A stretch of 64,000 nucleotides of DNA from Pseudanabaena mucicola FACHB-723. Lineage in GTDB: Bacteria > Cyanobacteriota > Cyanobacteriia > Pseudanabaenales > Pseudanabaenaceae. Under the pieces are notes generated by a model that was not told the DNA's origin, made no database searches, and saw nothing but the letters and a program-made list of their open reading frames with translations. Position 1 is the first letter of the stretch; each line of letters starts with the position of its first letter. The position numbers were made by a program, and so were the translations under genes. The DNA lies in contig NZ_JACJQB010000002.1 of assembly GCF_014696385.1 (NCBI RefSeq), positions 124,001 through 188,000 of the forward strand. The letters are read 5' to 3'. Shown here piece after piece: positions 8,938 to 17,770 of this stretch.

Positions 8938-9666
8938 ATGCAAATCACCCTCGACAACGTTAGTAAAAATTACAGCGGTAGACAGGTCGTCCAGCAAGTA
9001 AGTCTCACTGTCAAGCAGGGAGAAATTGTGGGGTTATTGGGTCCCAACGGTGCTGGTAAGACGACCTCGTTTTATATGGCAACAGGGCTAGTGCAGCCCG
9101 ATAGCGGCAGTGTTTGGCTAGACAAGCAAGATATCACCCGCTTACCTATCCATAAACGCGCCCGCATGGGTATGGCATACCTTGCCCAAGAAGCCACGAT
9201 TTTTCGGCAGCTATCGGTGCGTGACAATCTATTGCTGGTGATGCAACAAACCAATGTCCCCCAGCATTTGCGGATTCATCGCCTCCGCACCTTGTTAGAA
9301 GAATTTCGACTGACCAAGATTGCTGACACATTGGGAATCCAAGTTTCAGGGGGAGAACGTCGCCGCACCGAAATCGCCAGAGCCTTGGCAGTGGGTGTCG
9401 ATGGACCTAAATTTATTTTGCTAGATGAACCCTTTGCGGGAATTGACCCGATCGCCGTGAGTGAGATTCAGACGATTATTAGTAATTTACGCGATCGCAA
9501 TATGGGCGTGTTAATTACTGACCACAATGTCCGTGAAACCCTCACAATTACCGATCGCGCCTACATCATGCGTGAAGGTGAAGTATTTGCCGATGGCTCT
9601 AGTCGAGAATTAGCCGACGATCCTGATGTTCGCAAATACTATTTGGGTGAAAAGTTTCACTTTTAA
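8938..9666 (+). CDS. lptB: LPS export ABC transporter ATP-binding protein LptB
   Basis: A 242-residue ABC ATPase. Walker A GPNGAGKTT is at 35-43, the Q-loop lies in AYLAQEATIFRQLSVRDNL, the signature is VSGGERRRTEIARALA, Walker B is FILLDEPFAGIDP, and the switch His is in ITDHNVRETL. The combination of GERRR in the signature with the DHNVRETL H-loop is characteristic of LptB. It powers LPS extraction from the inner membrane together with LptF/LptG. It lies between the lptA-like gene and the LptF/G permease, all on the plus strand. Confidence 0.94.
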   Translation: MQITLDNVSKNYSGRQVVQQVSLTVKQGEIVGLLGPNGAGKTTSFYMATGLVQPDSGSVWLDKQDITRLPIHKRARMGMAYLAQEATIFRQLSVRDNLLLVMQQTNVPQHLRIHRLRTLLEEFRLTKIADTLGIQVSGGERRRTEIARALAVGVDGPKFILLDEPFAGIDPIAVSEIQTIISNLRDRNMGVLITDHNVRETLTITDRAYIMREGEVFADGSSRELADDPDVRKYYLGEKFHF

Positions 9667-9794
9667 TTTTGATTTAATTTGATTTTGATTTCTGATTGAA
9701 TTTTTGATTTTTGCGCCCATTTTCTATTTTTGAATGGCAATGGCATAAAAAAATACACAACTGTTTCCAAGAACCTGTAATCTCGATAAAGGAA

Positions 9795-10982
9795 ATGACA
9801 ACCTCACCAACAACGCATACGAGGAAAAAATCTACTAACGTGTCGCTAGGATGGCTGCCAAGACTATCGATCATGGATCGCTATTTGATCATCCAGATGC
9901 TAGTTCCCTTCTTATTTGGAGTGGGCGCATTTTCCTCGGTGATTTTAGCGATCGGTTCCCTATTTGAGCTAATTCGGCTGATCACTGATGCAGGCTTGAG
10001 TGTTTTAGTAGCTCTGCAAATTTTTGGCTATCAAGTTCCGGGCTTCATGGTCTATTCCTTCCCGATGTCAATGTTACTAGCGACATTGCTGTCCTATAGC
10101 CGCATGTCAGGCGACGGAGAAACAACCGCCCTCCGCAGTTGTGGGGTGAGTGCCTACCGTTTAGTTTTACCTGCTTTGGTGCTGAGTTTATTTGTCACAG
10201 GGCTGACCTATGTCTTTAATGAGGCAATTGTCCCCGCAGCAAACTGGCAGTCTCGCAGTACCCTCAGAGCAGCTCTAAATCAGGAAAATGTTCAGTTTAA
10301 AAGTCAAGATATTTTCTATCAACAATATGGCGAAGTGCCACAAGAGGATGGCAGTAAAAAGCAGGGACTAGTCCGCAGTTTTTATGCCCGTAGCTTTGAT
10401 GGCAAAGAGATGCGCGGGTTAACCGTTCTCGATTTTTCTCAGGGACAACTCCAACAAATCCTTGCTGCTGAGTCGGCAATTTGGCTACCCGATCAAAATG
10501 TTTGGAGATTCACCAAGGGAACAACTTATTTGGTGGGGCCAGATGGCAATTACCGGAGTATTCTCCGCTTTGATGATCAAAATCTGCAATTACCCCGCGC
10601 CCCACTTGATTTAGCACAGGAGCAGCGTAGCGCTGAGGAAATGAATATTGCCGATATTCGCCGCAATATTGAGCTACTCAAGCAATCTGGCAATACCAAA
10701 GAGATCCGTAAGCTAGAGGTCAGGTTAGAACAGAAATATGCACTCCCCTTTATCTGTGTGGTATTTGCGATTGTGGGTGCTTCCTTGGGGATGCGTCCCC
10801 AAAGAACTGGCGCTGCGATCGGATTTGGATTAAGCGTGCTGATTATTTTTGGCTATTATCTATTGCTATTTATCTGCGGGGCTTTGGGACAAGTCGAGTT
10901 TCTCTCACCGATCGCCGCCGCTTGGATGCCTAATTTAATTGGGCTTACTGCAGGCGTAGTGATTTTGACCCGTGTTACCTAA
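9795..10982 (+). CDS. LptF/LptG-family LPS export permease
   Basis: A 395-residue inner-membrane protein of the YjgP/YjgQ family. It has transmembrane helices near the start (YLIIQMLVPFLFGVGAFSSVILAI, then FGYQVPGFMVYSFPMSMLLATLL), the family segment SRMSGDGETTALRSCGVSAYRLVLPAL, a large periplasmic jellyroll domain, and three C-terminal helices including ALPFICVVFAIVGASLGMRPQR. ATG 9795 is preferred; a TTG at 9711 would add 28 residues that look non-coding. Only one permease gene is seen here, as is usual in cyanobacteria, so F versus G cannot be decided. It works with LptB just upstream. Confidence 0.9.
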   Translation: MTTSPTTHTRKKSTNVSLGWLPRLSIMDRYLIIQMLVPFLFGVGAFSSVILAIGSLFELIRLITDAGLSVLVALQIFGYQVPGFMVYSFPMSMLLATLLSYSRMSGDGETTALRSCGVSAYRLVLPALVLSLFVTGLTYVFNEAIVPAANWQSRSTLRAALNQENVQFKSQDIFYQQYGEVPQEDGSKKQGLVRSFYARSFDGKEMRGLTVLDFSQGQLQQILAAESAIWLPDQNVWRFTKGTTYLVGPDGNYRSILRFDDQNLQLPRAPLDLAQEQRSAEEMNIADIRRNIELLKQSGNTKEIRKLEVRLEQKYALPFICVVFAIVGASLGMRPQRTGAAIGFGLSVLIIFGYYLLLFICGALGQVEFLSPIAAAWMPNLIGLTAGVVILTRVT

Positions 10983-11028
10983 ATACATTTTTAAAAGTGG
11001 GGCAAAGCCCCACTTTTAAAATGTATTT
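10981..11028. terminator. Bidirectional terminator palindrome with GCAAAGC apex
   Basis: Arms 10981-11003 and 11007-11028 pair with one bulged base around loop AAA (GGGGCAAAGCCCC). The hairpin overlaps the stop codon of the LptF/G gene and lies between two convergent genes. A and T tracts on the outer arms fit termination in both directions. Confidence 0.75.
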
Positions 11029-11060
11029 GTACTCAAGCAAAGGCATTTTTAGCTTTGCTA

Positions 11061-11684
11061 TTATTTTTTCTTCGATTTATTCACAGGCACTTCAACAATC
11101 GCATTTTCAACTTGCGTGGTTGACTCGTTATTGTCTGTTTCATCCTCATCGTTCTCAATTTCAAAGGGGGAAGAACTTGCCGCACTACTATCAGCAGAGA
11201 TTTTTACCTCAGCATTGGGCGACTTGAGCGCTTCATCCAGAACTTGACGAGCATGTTCAGCCTGCGATCGCGCATCTAAAAACTTCATATTCAACTGAGC
11301 AAAACTCTTGAGCGTCTTAAAACCTTCCTTAATGCTGTTGATTTGCTCCTCAGAGACAATCTCATCGCTGAACAGGATATCGATTTGCGATCGCACCTGC
11401 ATCGCATCAGATCGTAATTCTTGAATTTTAATTTTTAAGGTTGCAAGGTTATTTAAGACTTGCACAGCTTGAGTAATCGGATCTTCGCGATCTTCAGACA
11501 TAGAAAGTTCTCTCACTTCAATAAATTGGTCAGGACTAAAGCCATCAGCAAGGTCAGTATCGAGTTTACCTGAGTCCATCAATTCCATCAGTTCTGCCAT
11601 TGCCTTTTCCCGTGCTTTTGGCGAATCTTTGCCACTCACGCTTAAGACAACTTCGGGACTTTGGGCAAGGGTATAGCGCACCAT
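11061..11684 (-). CDS. Conserved hypothetical protein
   Basis: A 207-residue soluble protein, not recognised. It begins MVRYTLAQSPEVVLSV at ATG 11684; a TTG ten codons upstream is less likely. Residues about 20-60 resemble a small helical module (KAREKAMAELMELMDSGKL). Residues about 80-155 are helical and heptad-like (LNNLATLKIKIQELRSDAMQVRSQIDIL). The last 45 residues are acidic, low in complexity and end in Lys residues. No catalytic motif or signal sequence is seen. It converges with the LptF/G gene and is separated from it by a palindrome. Confidence 0.6.
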   Translation of the reverse strand: MVRYTLAQSPEVVLSVSGKDSPKAREKAMAELMELMDSGKLDTDLADGFSPDQFIEVRELSMSEDREDPITQAVQVLNNLATLKIKIQELRSDAMQVRSQIDILFSDEIVSEEQINSIKEGFKTLKSFAQLNMKFLDARSQAEHARQVLDEALKSPNAEVKISADSSAASSSPFEIENDEDETDNNESTTQVENAIVEVPVNKSKKK

Positions 11685-12055
11685 AGCTTTAAATATCTTT
11701 TGACATCTAGACAATGAGTAACGATATTACAGTGCAAAGCACCGCAAAACATTATAGAAACTAACAAAAAATAGTGATATATCATCAACTATTCCTACTT
11801 TTTTATTAGCGCAAATACCAAAGTTACGCTTTGTGTCTCATGCGATCGCCAAAGCAGATCAGCTAAAATTCAATTTCCAGATAAATCAAAGTTTTCCAAG
11901 TTTATTGTTTTTCTATGGAACTAGGCGCAATTAAATATAAAACCCTGAAACCTGTAGCACACGCTGCGCGTGCTACAGGTTTTACCTCTAGGTTTTAATT
12001 ATGCCTAGCCACTTAAACAAAAGCTAGAACACATTCGGGGAAGCAAATCGTACCC
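11685..12055. other. 371-bp intergenic region between divergent genes
   Basis: This region separates the hypothetical gene (minus) from the GAF/HPt gene (plus). Its right half is taken up by copy A of the MITE-like repeat (11918-12016). The left half is AT-rich and probably carries the promoter of the minus-strand gene. I see no coding frame. Confidence 0.5.
11918..12016. repeat. MITE-like palindromic repeat, copy A (most complete)
   Basis: About 99 bp that is palindromic along its whole length. The outer ends CTAGGCGCAATTAA (11921 on) and TTAATTATGCCTAG (to 12009) are imperfect inverted repeats. The inner ends ACCTGTAGCAC and GTGCTACAGGT flank the centre ACGCTGCGCGT. Related copies are at 43466, 47057 and 54672. 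It has no coding capacity. The two inverted ends suggest a mobile or formerly mobile miniature element; target-site duplications are not obvious. Confidence 0.72.
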
Positions 12056-14056
12056 ATGGATTCTCATCTCCTAGACCAAATTCGCCATCTCTGCCGCGAT
12101 CGCGCTGCCTATGAACACCTCAAAGCCATCTTGGTTCAGCAAGAGCGTGTCCATCAACTTAGCTGGGAAGAGCATTACGAAAAGCTTCTAGCTAGCCAGT
12201 CATCAGATTCACCTGCATCGAATTTACTTAGCAATATCATCGCTAGAGAAAAAGCCCTCGCCCAACTTGCCGATACAATTCAGCGCTCACCATCTCTAGA
12301 GCTAGTTTTACAAGTTGCCGTACAGGTGGCCCAAAAATTACTACAAGTCGATCGTGTTGCTATTTTTCGGTTTCACGATGACGGACGAGGAGAATTTGCC
12401 ACCGATGCGATCGCAAGCGGTGTGGAGTCCTTTGCAAATATGCCTGAAAGACAGCTTTCCTTGGCACGGCATCTGGCTGAGTCGATCCAAGCAGAATCTG
12501 AAGGTCACATTGCAGAACAAGAGGAGCAAATTGTCGCCAATATTCGTAGTTCTAGTATCTCTAATCACATCAGTAATTTACTAGAGGAAATCGGAATTTC
12601 TGCTTACGCTTCCAATAAGATCCATGCAGGACAAGAAGTTTGGGGGACTCTAGTAGCCTTTTATGGCAACAATCATCAGAGTTGTTCCGAGAGTGATCGC
12701 ACTTCCCTATCCCTCATTGCCGCTCAAATTGGCATTGCAATTTCCCTCACCAATTTACGTCAGCAATCCCACGATCTCACCGAGGATCTACAAGTCCTCA
12801 AAAATGAGCTAGATCATTTGCACCGAGCCGTTGCCGAAATCGCCGCCAGTGACAATCAATCTGTACAAAATCTAGTTGTCAATCAAGATATTGATGCCGA
12901 TGAGCCAACTATTCTGCAAGAACCGACTGTAGAAACTATAACTTCTATAGAAGCTCCAGAAACTATCTCTATACATGATATTGAGCAAGAAACAGAAGCA
13001 GAAGAATCTGCAAAGGTTTCTAGTATCTCCCAAGTACCTGAGCCAGAAATTGCACCTCAAGATATAGAGAATGTTGTTATAGAAGTACCAATAGAGGTGA
13101 GCCATCCTGATCAGGAAACTGTGTTAATAGAGTCTCAAATCACAGAGTTCAATCACGAGCAAGAAGTTCCAGAAGAGTCTCCATTGGAAATAGATAGTCA
13201 CCAGCAGGAAACCCATCCCCTTGCCAATATTGACTCTGATTTCCATGAAGCTTTAGCGGCTTTACCAACGGAAACAAGTTCATTAGTTTTAGCAGTTGCC
13301 GACATTGAGAAAACATCTATTCCATTAGTAGATGAGGATTTAACTTTATCAAGTAGAACGATAGATGTAGATACAACCTCAGTCATGCCTGTCGCTGCTG
13401 ATGAGAACATTACATCCGTTGACTTGGCAATGAATTTTGAACAGGCAGATGCACCTGCTACCAGAACAATTCCCACCGCAGAAATTCAGTCGTTGACTGA
13501 TGTAGAAGGTGTGCTGGTAGAGGATTCATCAAAAGAAGCTGCTCTAGAAATATCTATCGATCATTTTAATTTAGTGGAGCTTCAGCATGGTTTGGATACA
13601 ACTGAGTCATGCCAACAGGAGCAACAGTATGATCTTCCAGTGACTGAGCCAACAATAGAACAGGTGCATCGGTTACCGATTGATCTCTGTGCATTTTTAG
13701 AGCAAGAGACTAACCCTGTAATTGACTTGCAGTTTTTAGAAACTCTCACCAATTGCGATCGCAATCTCGCCTTAGAAGTAATCGATACTTACCTACAAGA
13801 AACCCCGCTCTTAGTTCAAGCCATCGATCAAGCCCTAGCGACAAATAATCACACTCAGCTCTGGGAATTGTTAAATAAATTGCGCTCCAGTAGCGGTAAG
13901 GTTGGTGCATTGACCCTTGTCTATCAATGCCGCCAGCTTGAGTCTTCCATCAAAGCAAATTATGTTGTTCTGATCTACGCTTGTTTGGCGAGGGTTGCCA
14001 TTGAGTCACAGAAGGCAATAGAGTCACTACGCATATTGCGATCGCAATACACCTAA
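12056..14056 (+). CDS. GAF-domain protein with long acidic linker and degenerate HPt domain
   Basis: A 666-residue soluble protein. An N-terminal helical part (1-75) is followed by a GAF domain (about 80-225: VDRVAIFRFHDDGRGEF and GQEVWGTLVAFYGN). A coiled-coil stretch and about 280 residues of Glu/Ile/Thr-rich, probably disordered linker follow. The C-terminus (about 550-655) matches an HPt four-helix bundle. Where HPt domains have His in an AHxLKGSS context, this protein has LLNKLRSSSGKVGA, so the phospho-acceptor is replaced by Asn607. It may still dock to receiver domains without transferring phosphate. No kinase core is present. Confidence 0.78.
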   Translation: MDSHLLDQIRHLCRDRAAYEHLKAILVQQERVHQLSWEEHYEKLLASQSSDSPASNLLSNIIAREKALAQLADTIQRSPSLELVLQVAVQVAQKLLQVDRVAIFRFHDDGRGEFATDAIASGVESFANMPERQLSLARHLAESIQAESEGHIAEQEEQIVANIRSSSISNHISNLLEEIGISAYASNKIHAGQEVWGTLVAFYGNNHQSCSESDRTSLSLIAAQIGIAISLTNLRQQSHDLTEDLQVLKNELDHLHRAVAEIAASDNQSVQNLVVNQDIDADEPTILQEPTVETITSIEAPETISIHDIEQETEAEESAKVSSISQVPEPEIAPQDIENVVIEVPIEVSHPDQETVLIESQITEFNHEQEVPEESPLEIDSHQQETHPLANIDSDFHEALAALPTETSSLVLAVADIEKTSIPLVDEDLTLSSRTIDVDTTSVMPVAADENITSVDLAMNFEQADAPATRTIPTAEIQSLTDVEGVLVEDSSKEAALEISIDHFNLVELQHGLDTTESCQQEQQYDLPVTEPTIEQVHRLPIDLCAFLEQETNPVIDLQFLETLTNCDRNLALEVIDTYLQETPLLVQAIDQALATNNHTQLWELLNKLRSSSGKVGALTLVYQCRQLESSIKANYVVLIYACLARVAIESQKAIESLRILRSQYT

Positions 14057-14059
14057 AGC

Positions 14060-14110
14060 CCCAAAAACAGGTAAGGAAAAGGCTAAGCCTTTTCCTTACC
14101 TGTTTTTGGG
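14060..14110. terminator. 24-bp perfect palindrome between convergent genes
   Basis: Arms 14060-14083 and 14087-14110 pair perfectly around loop TAA; the apex reads AGGCTAAGCCT. It starts four bases after the GAF/HPt stop and ends five bases before the smtB stop, so it can serve both convergent genes. Confidence 0.8.
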
Positions 14111-14114
14111 TGGA

Positions 14115-14501
14115 TTACTCGTCTAAATGCTCAGAAACCGACTGATATAGCTCTAGAACATGGTGATCCAGCAATTGGTAATAGACGCGACGCTTACTTT
14201 TACGGTAACTAACTAAACGCATCGTTCTTAACACCCTAAGCTGGTGAGATACTGCTGACTCACTCATACCGACTAATTCTGCCAGATCATGCACGCATAA
14301 CTCCTGCCGCGATAGGATCGACAAAATTCTGAGGCGATTGGGATCTCCCAACATCGCAAAAAATTCTGCCATGATCTGTGCCTTTTCCACTGACAAAATG
14401 TCATCGGTTAAATTTTGCAATACTGCAGGTTCAGCTTCACAGTGATCGCAATTTGGTATCTCTTGCACACTGCGATCGGAAATTGGAGAGGAATTTAACA
14501 T
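14115..14501 (-). CDS. smtB: ArsR/SmtB-family zinc-responsive repressor
   Basis: A 128-residue winged-helix repressor. The DNA-binding helix region [35 protein letters not shown] closely follows SmtB/ZiaR. The C-terminal alpha-5 zinc site is intact in [19 protein letters not shown] (Asp, His, then His and Glu from the partner subunit). An N-terminal CDHC pair resembles the extra cysteine site of ZiaR. Apo-protein should bind the operator in the smtA promoter and release it when zinc binds. It is divergent from smtA, with 95 bp between the starts. Confidence 0.92.
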
Positions 14502-14540
14502 GTATCCATTTTACGAAAAAGTGATCGCATTAGTTTATTC

Positions 14541-14570
14541 TTGACTTATGAATATATATTCATATATAAT
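14541..14570 (+). promoter_or_regulatory. smtA promoter with SmtB operator filling the spacer
   Basis: TTGACT (14541-14546) and TATAAT (14565-14570) are separated by 18 bp. That spacer is a perfect 18-bp palindrome, TATGAATATATATTCATA (14547-14564). It fits the ArsR/SmtB operator pattern TGAAnAnnTATTCAnAT. A repressor dimer bound here would cover both promoter boxes. Confidence 0.82.
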
Positions 14571-14596
14571 AAGCTCAATCGCATAGGATTAAATTC

Positions 14597-14764
14597 ATGA
14601 CCACTATTACTGAAACTAAATGTGCTTGTCCTAAATGCTCTTGCATCGTCTCCCTCGATACAGCAATCATGGCAAATGGCAAGCCCTATTGCAGCAAAGC
14701 CTGCGCTGATGGACATCCCGCAGGCTCGACAGGTTGCAAAAAATCTGGCTGTGGCTGTGGTTAA
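14597..14764 (+). CDS. smtA: Bacterial metallothionein SmtA
   Basis: A 55-residue protein read directly from the sequence. It has nine cysteines (9, 11, 14, 16, 32, 36, 47, 52, 54) in the spacing of cyanobacterial SmtA, plus the YCSKACADGH segment with His40. SmtA sequesters zinc in a four-metal cluster. Compared with the Synechococcus protein as I remember it, the second ligand His49 is Lys49 and the terminal His is absent. It lies divergent to smtB, behind a promoter whose spacer is the SmtB operator, so zinc induction is expected. A small hairpin with an AAAAGAGGAGG stem follows the stop. Confidence 0.93.
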   Translation: MTTITETKCACPKCSCIVSLDTAIMANGKPYCSKACADGHPAGSTGCKKSGCGCG

Positions 14765-14765
14765 G

Positions 14766-14798
14766 CAAAAGAGGAGGTGATTACCTCCTCTTTTGCTT
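14766..14798 (+). terminator. Terminator after smtA
   Basis: AGCAAAAGAGGAGGT and ACCTCCTCTTTTGCT pair around GATT, starting just after the smtA stop and ending in a T-rich stretch. Confidence 0.75.
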
Positions 14799-14849
14799 TG
14801 ATGTTTGGTTACGCTATAGTACAAATCATCAGCTTCACCAAAATCAAAG

Positions 14850-15698
14850 ATGCTAAATTTAGACGAAATCATGTCACTTGCTCGCCCAATCGCTTGGGGA
14901 GCGGGTGACATTTTGATGAAGTATTATCAAGATCCTCAAGACTTAGATATCAGGTCGAAGGGTGGTGAAGATGGAAATGTAACTGCCGCCGATTTAGCTG
15001 CCAATGAATTTATTTTGCAACAGCTAAAAGAGGCTTTTGGCACTGAAGAATTTGCCTATCTCAGTGAAGAAACTGAAGATAATATCAATCGTCTTGATTG
15101 TGAATGGGTCTGGATCATCGATCCGATGGATGGAACCAGTGACTTTATTCGCCGTACTAATGAATTTGCGGTACATATTGGCTTAGCCTATCGCCAACGA
15201 CCTGTATTGGGGCTAGTTGCCACACCTGCCCAAGATCGTCTATTTCAAGCCATACTCGGTAAAGGGGCATATGTGGAAACCAGAGACGGTCAAAAGCAAC
15301 GCATCCATGTTTCTGACAAAGCTAAACTCGATCAAATGGTGGTCGTTGCTAGTCGTAGCCATCGCAATGCCCAACTAGAAAGCATCCTCCATGAGTTACC
15401 CAAAGCTGCGGAAATTGCTGTTGGTAGCATTGGCGGTAAATTCGCGGCGATCGCATCAGGTCATGCAGACGTATATATCTCTGTCTCTGGCAAATCTGCC
15501 CCCAAAGATTGGGACTACTGCGCTCCTGAAATTATCTTGACCGAGGCGGGCGGCAAGCTTACCCATGCGGATTTAACCGAGTTGTCGTACAACAATCTCG
15601 AACTACGCCAATGGGGAACGATCGTGGCTAGTAATGGTCATTGTCATCAACAAATTTGTGACATTAGCCAAATTGCGATCGCACCAATTAAAAAGTAG
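14850..15698 (+). CDS. 3'(2'),5'-bisphosphate nucleotidase / inositol monophosphatase family (CysQ-like)
   Basis: A 282-residue Mg-dependent phosphatase. The metal site is shown by SEETED (about 75), DPMDGTSDF (about 91-99) and WDYCAPEIILTEAGG near the C-terminus. The family includes inositol monophosphatase, fructose-1,6-bisphosphatase-like enzymes and CysQ, which removes the 3' phosphate from PAP during sulfate assimilation. The overall pattern and the DGTSDF form suit CysQ, but substrate cannot be fixed from sequence. ATG 14850 lies 85 bp after smtA on the same strand; the terminator between them suggests separate transcription. Confidence 0.83.
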   Translation: MLNLDEIMSLARPIAWGAGDILMKYYQDPQDLDIRSKGGEDGNVTAADLAANEFILQQLKEAFGTEEFAYLSEETEDNINRLDCEWVWIIDPMDGTSDFIRRTNEFAVHIGLAYRQRPVLGLVATPAQDRLFQAILGKGAYVETRDGQKQRIHVSDKAKLDQMVVVASRSHRNAQLESILHELPKAAEIAVGSIGGKFAAIASGHADVYISVSGKSAPKDWDYCAPEIILTEAGGKLTHADLTELSYNNLELRQWGTIVASNGHCHQQICDISQIAIAPIKK

Positions 15699-15770
15699 CA
15701 GTTGTCAGTACATTTAAAACATCTAGAAACTTAAGGAACAAGGGACTTAAGCCCCCTGTCTATTTTGATT

Positions 15771-16097
15771 ATGAAATTACAAGTAACTTTAATTGGCATT
15801 GCGATCGTTGCTGTGGGCATGGCTATCAGCAATCCCAGCAAAGAACGTTACGTTGAATATGCTGCCACCGAGTTTTCAGAAACAGGCAAAAATTCACTCT
15901 GTGCTGGCGATATGCCGATCGCCGCCCAACAGTCCTGTAAATTTCTGATCTCACAAGGGAAAGGAGTGATTACAGGCATCGTTGAGAACTCAACAAAACA
16001 GCAAAACTTCATATTGTTTAGTCTCTACGAAACTGATATGCCTGACAAAAAAATTACGACGATCGCGGCTCTTGGAAATTTCTATATGCTTAAATAA
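15771..16097 (+). CDS. DUF4359-type small exported or membrane-anchored protein
   Basis: A 108-residue protein starting MKLQVTLIGIAIVAVGMAISNPS at ATG 15771; a TTG two codons earlier is less likely. One hydrophobic N-terminal helix acts as a signal or anchor. The rest has the ERYVEYAATEF, AGDMPIAAQQSCKFLISQGKG and NFILFSLYET segments of the DUF4359 family, found mainly in cyanobacteria. Its function is unknown. It converges with obg, and the palindrome between them overlaps the obg stop codon. Confidence 0.72.
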   Translation: MKLQVTLIGIAIVAVGMAISNPSKERYVEYAATEFSETGKNSLCAGDMPIAAQQSCKFLISQGKGVITGIVENSTKQQNFILFSLYETDMPDKKITTIAALGNFYMLK

Positions 16098-16107
16098 TCG
16101 CCATCTC

Positions 16108-16148
16108 CCCATAAAAAAAGCGGTGCTAAGCACCGCTTTTTTTATGGG
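16108..16148. terminator. Bidirectional terminator overlapping the obg stop
   Basis: Arms 16108-16126 and 16130-16148 pair perfectly around TAA (GGTGCTAAGCACC). Seven A and seven T residues suit both directions. The right arm includes the obg stop codon (16142-16144). Confidence 0.82.
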
Positions 16149-17137
16149 TTTTGTTGATCAAATTTTTCCAACTTTTTCCAAACCGAGCGCAAAAGTATAT
16201 CTAGCCCTTTTTTCGATGCTGCGGAAATAGCTAAAATCGGTTGATCAAATTGAGCGGCAATTTCCTCCACATCTTCAGGCAACATTGCATCAATCTTATT
16301 CAAAGCCAAAATTTGCGGCTTATCCGATAAACCATGACCATAGGCTTCTAATTCTTCTTGAATCGTGTGATAGGCAGCAAGGGGATCGTCCTGTGTCACA
16401 TCAATCAGATGAATCAATAGCTTCGTGCGTTCCACATGACGCAAAAAGTCATGCCCTAAACCAATTCCCTCAGAAGCCCCTTCGATTAAGCCGGGAATAT
16501 CCGCAAACACAATGCCATCACCTGAAGGCTTAGACACCACACCCAAATTTGGAACAAGGGTAGTAAAGGGATAATCCGCAATTTTGGGACGGGCTGCCGA
16601 CACCACCGAAATTAGGGTTGATTTACCCGCATTCGGCAAGCCAATGATACCCACTTCCGCAATTAACTTTAATTCCAGATAGAGATTTAACTCTTCTCCC
16701 GGTAATCCGGGTAGGGCATAGTCAGGGGCGCGATTTTGATTGCTCAAGAAATATTTATTCCCCAAGCCACCCTTGCCCCCCTTTGCCACAAACAAAGTTT
16801 GTCCAGCCTCGGTTAGATCTCCTAACACTTCACCTGTCTCTTCATTCATCACCACCGTACCAATCGGCACTTTGATAATGCGATCATTGCCTTTACGCCC
16901 CGTCATATTACTGGGGCCGCCGCGTTCACCATTTTCCGCTTTAAAAATATTCTCGAAGCGAAAGTCTAACAATGTTTGTAGATCGGTTGTGGCTTCCAAA
17001 ATCACAGAACCGCCATTGCCACCATTGCCACCCGCAGGCCCGCCCGCAGGCACATACTTCTCGCGGCGAAATGCGACCAGCCCATCGCCACCATCGCCAG
17101 ACTTGACATGTATCGTAACTCGATCAATAAAATGCAT
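16142..17137 (-). CDS. obg: GTPase Obg/CgtA
   Basis: A 331-residue ribosome-associated GTPase. The N-terminal glycine-rich OBG fold ([37 protein letters not shown]) spans about 1-158. The G domain follows with G1 [10 protein letters not shown]2 region [13 protein letters not shown]3 [10 protein letters not shown]4 LNKID and G5 ISAAS. It takes part in 50S subunit maturation and stress control. ATG 17137 matches the family N-terminus; a longer frame would add 13 residues. There is no C-terminal OCT domain, as in many cyanobacteria. Confidence 0.95.
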
Positions 17138-17280
17138 CGCTAACTCAATTACTTGCTCTATACCGCGACAATCCAATTAACTTGCAGGATTGTCTCTATC
17201 GGCTTTATTCCTATTATGCAGTGATTCAGCCTATCGCTATCAATAAATAAAAAAGTATCGCTGTAGCAACACTAAAACCC

Positions 17281-17317
17281 AAAGAGATGTGCGGCGCTTC
17301 GCGCCGCACATCTCTTT
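17281..17317. terminator. 17-bp perfect palindrome after the SH3 gene
   Basis: Arms 17281-17297 and 17301-17317 pair perfectly around TTC; the minus strand reads GGCGCGAAGCGCC at the apex. It is preceded by AAAACCC on the plus strand. It lies ten bases past the stop of the minus-strand SH3-domain gene. Confidence 0.75.
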
Positions 17318-17326
17318 TACGCTTAA

Positions 17327-17770
17327 CTATTCCTTAGTAATATTGCCAGCCCTTACCCAACCTTCTTCTTTGGTGCTTTCATTCCTGACAAATACCCATT
17401 CGCGATCAGGGGTTTCTTTAATAACGGCAACCTTGGCATTAAAGTCTGCACCGCCAACATTATTTGCCGATTGACTAGGTTCAGCACGAAATACTAACCC
17501 AATACCAGCATTAACTTTACCCTGATATTTGGCATCGTTAGATTTGGGTTTCGCGGTGACCGTTGGTTTTGGGACTGGCTGCACCTTGATCGCGGCGATC
17601 GGCGACTTGGGTGCAGGTACAGCTTTGAGGTCATTGGCAAAAACAGGTCTTTGAGGACTCTGTCTATAGGGCAAAATGACGTAGTACCAGCCGATTGCCA
17701 CGATTGAGGCAATTAGCCCCAAACTAAAGGCTAAGCTAACACTCGATTTTGCAGTTTCTGGAAATCTCAT
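17327..17770 (-). CDS. Membrane-anchored SH3b-domain protein
   Basis: A 147-residue protein. A single hydrophobic helix near the N-terminus (SVSLAFSLGLIASIVAIGWYYVILPY, about 10-35, given here in part) anchors it. A Pro/Lys-rich linker follows to about residue 80. The C-terminal bacterial SH3 domain (about 85-145) includes GIGLVFRAEPSQSANNVGG and REWVFVRNESTKEEGWVRAGNI. SH3b domains often bind peptidoglycan or peptides, so a cell-envelope role is likely but unproven. It is a single gene on the minus strand between hisZ and obg. Confidence 0.75.
   Translation of the reverse strand: MRFPETAKSSVSLAFSLGLIASIVAIGWYYVILPYRQSPQRPVFANDLKAVPAPKSPIAAIKVQPVPKPTVTAKPKSNDAKYQGKVNAGIGLVFRAEPSQSANNVGGADFNAKVAVIKETPDREWVFVRNESTKEEGWVRAGNITKE

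Follow-up and report, generated by a model that had tools for sequence, protein, structure and literature searches.

The gene under study lies in a window of 64,000 nucleotides (the whole stretch of DNA that was analysed) from Pseudanabaena mucicola FACHB-723. Its product consists of a GAF domain, an acidic linker and a C-terminal HPt domain in which the phospho-acceptor position is occupied by Asn (Table 1). Going by strand, the gene has no co-oriented neighbour next to it: upstream lies a divergent gene of no known family, and downstream an ArsR-type regulator in the opposite orientation. Beyond the divergent gene are an ABC ATPase, which we take to be LptB-like, and a permease. The divergent neighbour is found in 38 of the 58 related genomes (own included), other cyanobacterial families among them; at one of the 15 loci that combine it with the gene (L051), about 2 kb lies between the two.

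Table 1 Features of the gene and its surroundings, in window positions.
Feature	Positions	Strand	Basis or context
ABC ATPase (LptB-like) and LptF/LptG permease, upstream context	8938..10982	+	Upstream in 11/18 loci
Divergent neighbour, 217 aa, no Pfam or NCBIfam family	11061..11714	-	Adjoins the gene in 15/18 loci
GAF – acidic linker – pseudo-HPt protein, 666 aa	12056..14056	+	ORF, Pfam, orthologues
Hyperconserved N-terminal helical segment, residues 1–45	12056..12190	+	Alignment; helices in a low-confidence model
GAF domain, residues 81–229, without a conserved Cys inside	12296..12742	+	Pfam PF01590, 45.7 bits; alignment
Acidic, fast-evolving linker, about residues 261–547	12836..13696	+	Composition, length range, median dN/dS 0.54
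Pseudo-HPt domain, about residues 548–666	13697..14053	+	Pfam PF01627, AlphaFold2 pLDDT 89, PDB fold matches
Codon AAT of Asn607, phospho-acceptor position	13874..13876	+	Coordinates by arithmetic; aligned to the His of HPts
Helix E, residues 637–662 analysed; derived, nearly invariant hydrophobic face	13964..14041	+	Constraint comparison

Searches against Pfam at E values up to 1 returned GAF families and Hpt alone, and neither a kinase nor a receiver in the 666-residue chain; no NCBIfam family matched the protein. It is thus not a hybrid histidine kinase or phosphorelay protein of the kind that has a kinase or receiver in the same chain. The first-pass annotation had placed a GAF domain and a long acidic linker ahead of the HPt, and both are there; the linker has 286 residues, of which 22% are Asp or Glu, with a net charge of −57, and its length ranges from 193 to 455 residues among 22 sequences. 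A short motif resembling ISQNGLPPLFL was seen by eye in 14 of the 22 orthologue linkers printed and is absent from the window's protein. The N-terminal segment of 45 residues is very strongly conserved and lies outside every Pfam domain.

In the bilin-binding GAF domains of cyanobacteriochromes and phytochromes the chromophore is attached through a conserved Cys within the domain. No Cys is found among the invariant or nearly invariant columns of the GAF alignment, the sole conserved one being C13, outside the domain; the window's GAF therefore differs from the bilin-binding type in this respect. The model of the GAF part is poor (pLDDT 64.3), and the fold matches to bilin-type GAFs, obtained with that model of pLDDT 64, assign no ligand.

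A predicted HPt fold with Asn at the phospho-acceptor position

Residue 607 is Asn, within LLNKLRSSSGKVGA, and the Pfam Hpt match covers residues 574–637 at E 4.9e-8, its 33.5 bits exceeding the cut-off of 24.6; the GAF match likewise scores above its own cut-off. In the profile alignment the column of Asn607 is His in all 44 distinct related Hpts, and Asn607 aligns with the His of IHKLHG in 3myf_A, which we take to be the phospho-site. The AlphaFold2 model of the HPt part, made from 18 sequences, has a mean pLDDT of 89.0, with helices at model residues 14–20, 25–51, 55–72, 75–90 and 93–121; Asn607, numbered 63 in the model, falls in the third of these (helix C). In the fold comparisons (Foldseek and VIA-align 2) HPt structures come out on top, led by 3myf_D (Z 16.4, rmsd 2.5, 115 residues aligned) and including 7c1i HptB (Z 16.1) and 1wn0 ZmHP2 (Z 15.0). 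Among the matches listed, VIA ranks 1–21 are HPt chains, and unrelated helical chains appear from Z of about 12. The domain thus passes the PF01627 profile cut-off and is predicted to have the helical HPt fold, on the comparison with known HPt structures that the first-pass annotation had proposed. It is named a pseudo-HPt here rather than an HPt because the phosphorylatable His on helix C is absent.

The small residue at H+4 is retained: it is Ser in the window's protein and, over the 19 aligned rows, Ser in 12, Ala in 5, Thr in 1 and Leu in 1. No invariant or nearly invariant His column occurs in the HPt domain in these 19 rows, and no other His takes the phospho-site, an arrangement that would have overturned the original description. 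The sequence, the predicted fold and the orthologues together support a domain that is non-phosphorylatable at the usual site. Two peculiarities of the window's own HPt are that six residues present in 17 of 17 aligned orthologues are missing between positions 13765 and 13766 (the start of helix B), and that it has the longest end branch (0.54) among the 19 pseudo-HPts in the tree.

The other Hpts examined retain His. They are the best or selected matches from 290 genomes, not all matches; 54 loci were submitted to the profile and 45 aligned, two of them being the same place, which leaves the 44 distinct domains, and His is present in 35 of the 35 from outside the genus. The nine loci that did not align to the first profile all come from the window's own genome, and there His was recovered with a broader profile in seven and, at just 1.2 bits, in an eighth (L133), and by eye in L132. 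In that genome, which has 17 Hpt matches including the window's, His is accordingly present in 16 of 16 others, two of these on weak alignments. Bacterial Hpts without His made up 90 of 10,312 (0.9%) in one survey, which also counted 3,111 of 152,269 receivers without Asp (PMC12632262). Hpts without His are therefore already known, and the window's protein adds to a known kind.

Distribution in Pseudanabaena and selection on the domain

The search covered 58 related genomes including the window's own, with the genus Pseudanabaena represented by that genome and 25 others. The gene is present in 24 of the 25; the one genome without it (G016) is 76% complete and also lacks the conserved neighbour gene. 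The phospho-site is covered in 24 of the 25 orthologue sequences (the window's counted, and near copies such as L012 and L013 included); of these, 23 carry Asn and one, from a metagenome-assembled genome (MAG), carries Ser, the codons being AAT in 21, AAC in two and AGT in one. Aligning the orthologues at residue 607, as had been proposed, gives His in none of the 24, so that the case in which orthologues keep His does not arise. Sequencing error is excluded because Asn is also found in 22 other genomes, and the change from His to Asn is fixed in nearly the whole genus.

The remaining orthologue (L028 in genome G010, identical with L056; MAG ULC068bin1) ends at 292 residues and has lost the whole HPt part while keeping the GAF domain. 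In this protein (L028 1501–2379, L056 6001–6879) the N-terminal helix is intact and several otherwise nearly invariant GAF residues are changed. A scan of contigs with the alignment gave 18 loci, 15 of them in Pseudanabaena, each of which duplicates an orthologue already counted and is not an independent count; the same scan with a single protein as query gave no match.

The full-length gene was found in the genus only. Eleven of 12 further genomes from the family gave matches, those listed being local GAF or Hpt pieces, and among the matches listed for these 12 there was no full-length or His-bearing orthologue. Beside the conserved neighbour in six non-genus genomes the profile detected no HPt in ORFs of at least 100 aa, a search that a very diverged HPt could escape and that in one of the six (L147) covered about 0.7 kb of that side. 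In the tree the 19 pseudo-HPt rows group in a single clade (support 100/99) whose stem measures 1.12 changes per column; with few columns and unsettled bootstrap values, the tree resolved no parent of the domain.

Selection was estimated from 21 of the 25 coding sequences (L013, L021, L024 and L028 left out), which give 210 pairs; medians were taken from the 54 pairs whose dS was under 1.5 in the GAF part and in the HPt part alike. The median dN/dS comes to 0.097 in the N-terminal plus GAF region, rises to 0.539 in the linker and falls to 0.118 in the HPt, where the maximum is 0.248. The HPt domain is under strong purifying selection and is thus not decaying; a decaying gene was ruled out as an explanation on these ratios. 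Change on the stem followed by strong conservation would be the trace expected from the gain of a new role. Since His has given way to Asn genus-wide and selection is nevertheless strong, the HPt is probably a partner-binding rather than a phosphate-passing domain.

Constraint compared with a His-bearing family

The distribution of constraint was compared between 19 of the 24 pseudo-HPts and a control set of 21 HPts with His, all from a single hybrid-kinase family of Pseudanabaena. The control consists of L006, which has HisKA, HATPase, receiver and Hpt domains in the part analysed, and 20 others, grouped as one family by search matches and alignment; four further genomes of the genus that had matches were left out. 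The two sets are matched in divergence, with a mean identity of 0.759 in the control against 0.727 and an overall entropy of 0.61 in the control against 0.64. Helix A is alike in both (0.61 in the pseudo-HPts, 0.66 in the control). Variability is higher in the pseudo-HPts in the N-terminal part of helix B (0.63, control 0.39) and in the C-terminal part of helix C (0.79, control 0.30), but lower across helices D (0.49, control 0.72) and E (0.44, control 0.71). Around the old site, Asn607 is nearly fixed and Arg610 (H+3) is fully fixed in the pseudo-HPts.

The difference in helix E lies on one face, which helix periodicity would place at the exposed side. Positions 638, 639 and 649 are mostly Glu, Asp and Asp in the control and invariably Val, Leu and Ile in the pseudo-HPts. 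Eight outer positions of the helix have an entropy of 0.19 against 1.21 in the control, a figure that flatters the claim because the positions were chosen with the conservation table already in view, and over six of these eight the mean hydropathy is +1.64 against −0.95 in canonical relatives. Two of the 31 canonical relatives scored exceed the pseudo-HPts in helix E hydropathy (2.12). The contrast between the whole of helices C and E was reached by 178 of 20,000 plain permutations and, with 16 of 100 circular shifts also reaching the observed value, is suggestive and not proof. The alignments thus suggest that constraint may have moved from the surroundings of the phospho-site to the hydrophobic face of helix E.

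Possible functions of the pseudo-HPt

The reading that we favour, at a probability of about 0.45, is that a phosphotransfer-dead HPt persists as a module that binds irrespective of phosphorylation, the protein being a GAF-sensor adaptor that meets its partner mainly through the helix E face. The helix-flanked GAF part would probably sense a ligand or state and would probably dimerise, and the acidic linker, from its composition and variability, would be a flexible tether. The C-terminal HPt would have lost phosphotransfer and retained its fold for binding that does not depend on phosphorylation. Judging from where selection acts, the partner would be bound mainly by the new hydrophobic face of helix E and the turn between helices D and E, with the old phospho-site contributing less. 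In Ypd1 the receiver-docking site is made of helix A, the N-terminal part of helix B and the C-terminal part of helix C (PMC6341664). A moved interface is favoured because part of this receiver-docking surface is relaxed and a new conserved hydrophobic face is present elsewhere; putative reuse as a binding module is on that account preferred to the simple receiver sequestration proposed in the first-pass annotation. The nearly fixed Asn607 and the fully fixed Arg610, which argue for continued importance of the old site, and helix A, conserved as in the control, speak against the helix E reading. More tentatively, an HPt without its phospho-site may have become the output module of a GAF sensor in an ancestor of Pseudanabaena, with the working surface moving from helix C to a hydrophobic face on helices D and E.

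A serious, if rather doubtful, rival reading is a competitor in the manner of the Arabidopsis protein AHP6, which would use the usual docking surface to bind receivers (or kinases), carry no phosphate and make them unavailable to true HPts, to a degree tuned by the GAF domain. AHP6 has the identical change from His to Asn and acts as an inhibitor, in competition for kinases and regulators (PMC6518804, PMC6963811). The near fixation of Asn607, the full fixation of Arg610, the conserved helix A and this precedent all favour such a competitor, and the Asn at the site is retained rather than random. Two of the three docking parts, however, are looser than in the control, and none of the seven neighbouring proteins scanned (8938–17770) is a receiver or kinase. 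The variability at H+4 (Ser, Ala, Thr or Leu) also counts against it, although changes at H+4 of Ypd1 shifted its Kd for the receiver only modestly (0.5–2.9 against 0.94 µM).

Phosphorylation on another residue, such as a Ser or Thr close to position 607 or some other His, is improbable. In its favour, Ser613 is invariant and one MAG orthologue carries Ser in place of the Asn; however, 43 of 44 His-bearing HPts also have Ser at the 613 position, which for that reason is no replacement acceptor, a conserved His is absent from the domain, and the Hpts of ChpA without His were not phosphorylated in vitro (PMC10782961). It is more improbable still that the domain is a functionless, drifting relic of a hybrid kinase. 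The loss of the whole HPt part from ULC068bin1, where the 292-residue GAF protein is kept, would fit such a relic, but among the 24 other Pseudanabaena genomes with the gene 23 retain the HPt part, whose dN/dS lies close to that of the N-terminal plus GAF region and well under the linker's.

Among known systems the nearest in the phospho-site is AHP6, of the HPT-N class, which likewise has Asn in place of the phospho-His (PMC6518804), the feature that the window's protein shares on a predicted HPt fold. AHP6 is, however, a plant inhibitor of the cytokinin relay, and the window's protein is bacterial and fused to a GAF domain by an acidic linker. Bacterial Hpt folds without His occur in ChpA of Pseudomonas aeruginosa and in CheA3 (PMC10782961), but there they belong to chemotaxis kinases that also have Hpts with His, whereas Pfam finds neither kinase nor receiver in the window's protein. 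The C-terminal HPts of hybrid kinases, for example 3myf (Shewanella) and L006, have the fold and most signature residues in common with the pseudo-HPt; they keep His, and L006 has HisKA, HATPase and receiver domains ahead of its HPt, domains that the pseudo-HPt protein lacks. Among the matches listed in the open-access literature, none described the protein or a cyanobacterial GAF–pseudo-HPt.

A 2023 survey of CheA proteins describes the role of Hpts without His as 'yet to be determined' (PMC10782961). The gene described here offers a pseudo-HPt outside a large kinase, and the role of a phosphate-blind bacterial HPt becomes testable with it because it is a single gene, fixed in nearly the whole genus and under measurable selection, with a His-bearing control in the same genomes. 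It also gives a bacterial counterpart for comparison with plant AHP6. If true, the moved working surface would be a route in bacteria from a phosphorelay part to a plain binding domain. Bacterial pseudo-receivers and pseudo-histidine kinases, although of other domain types, are likewise two-component domains kept after loss of the phospho-site (PMC12632262).
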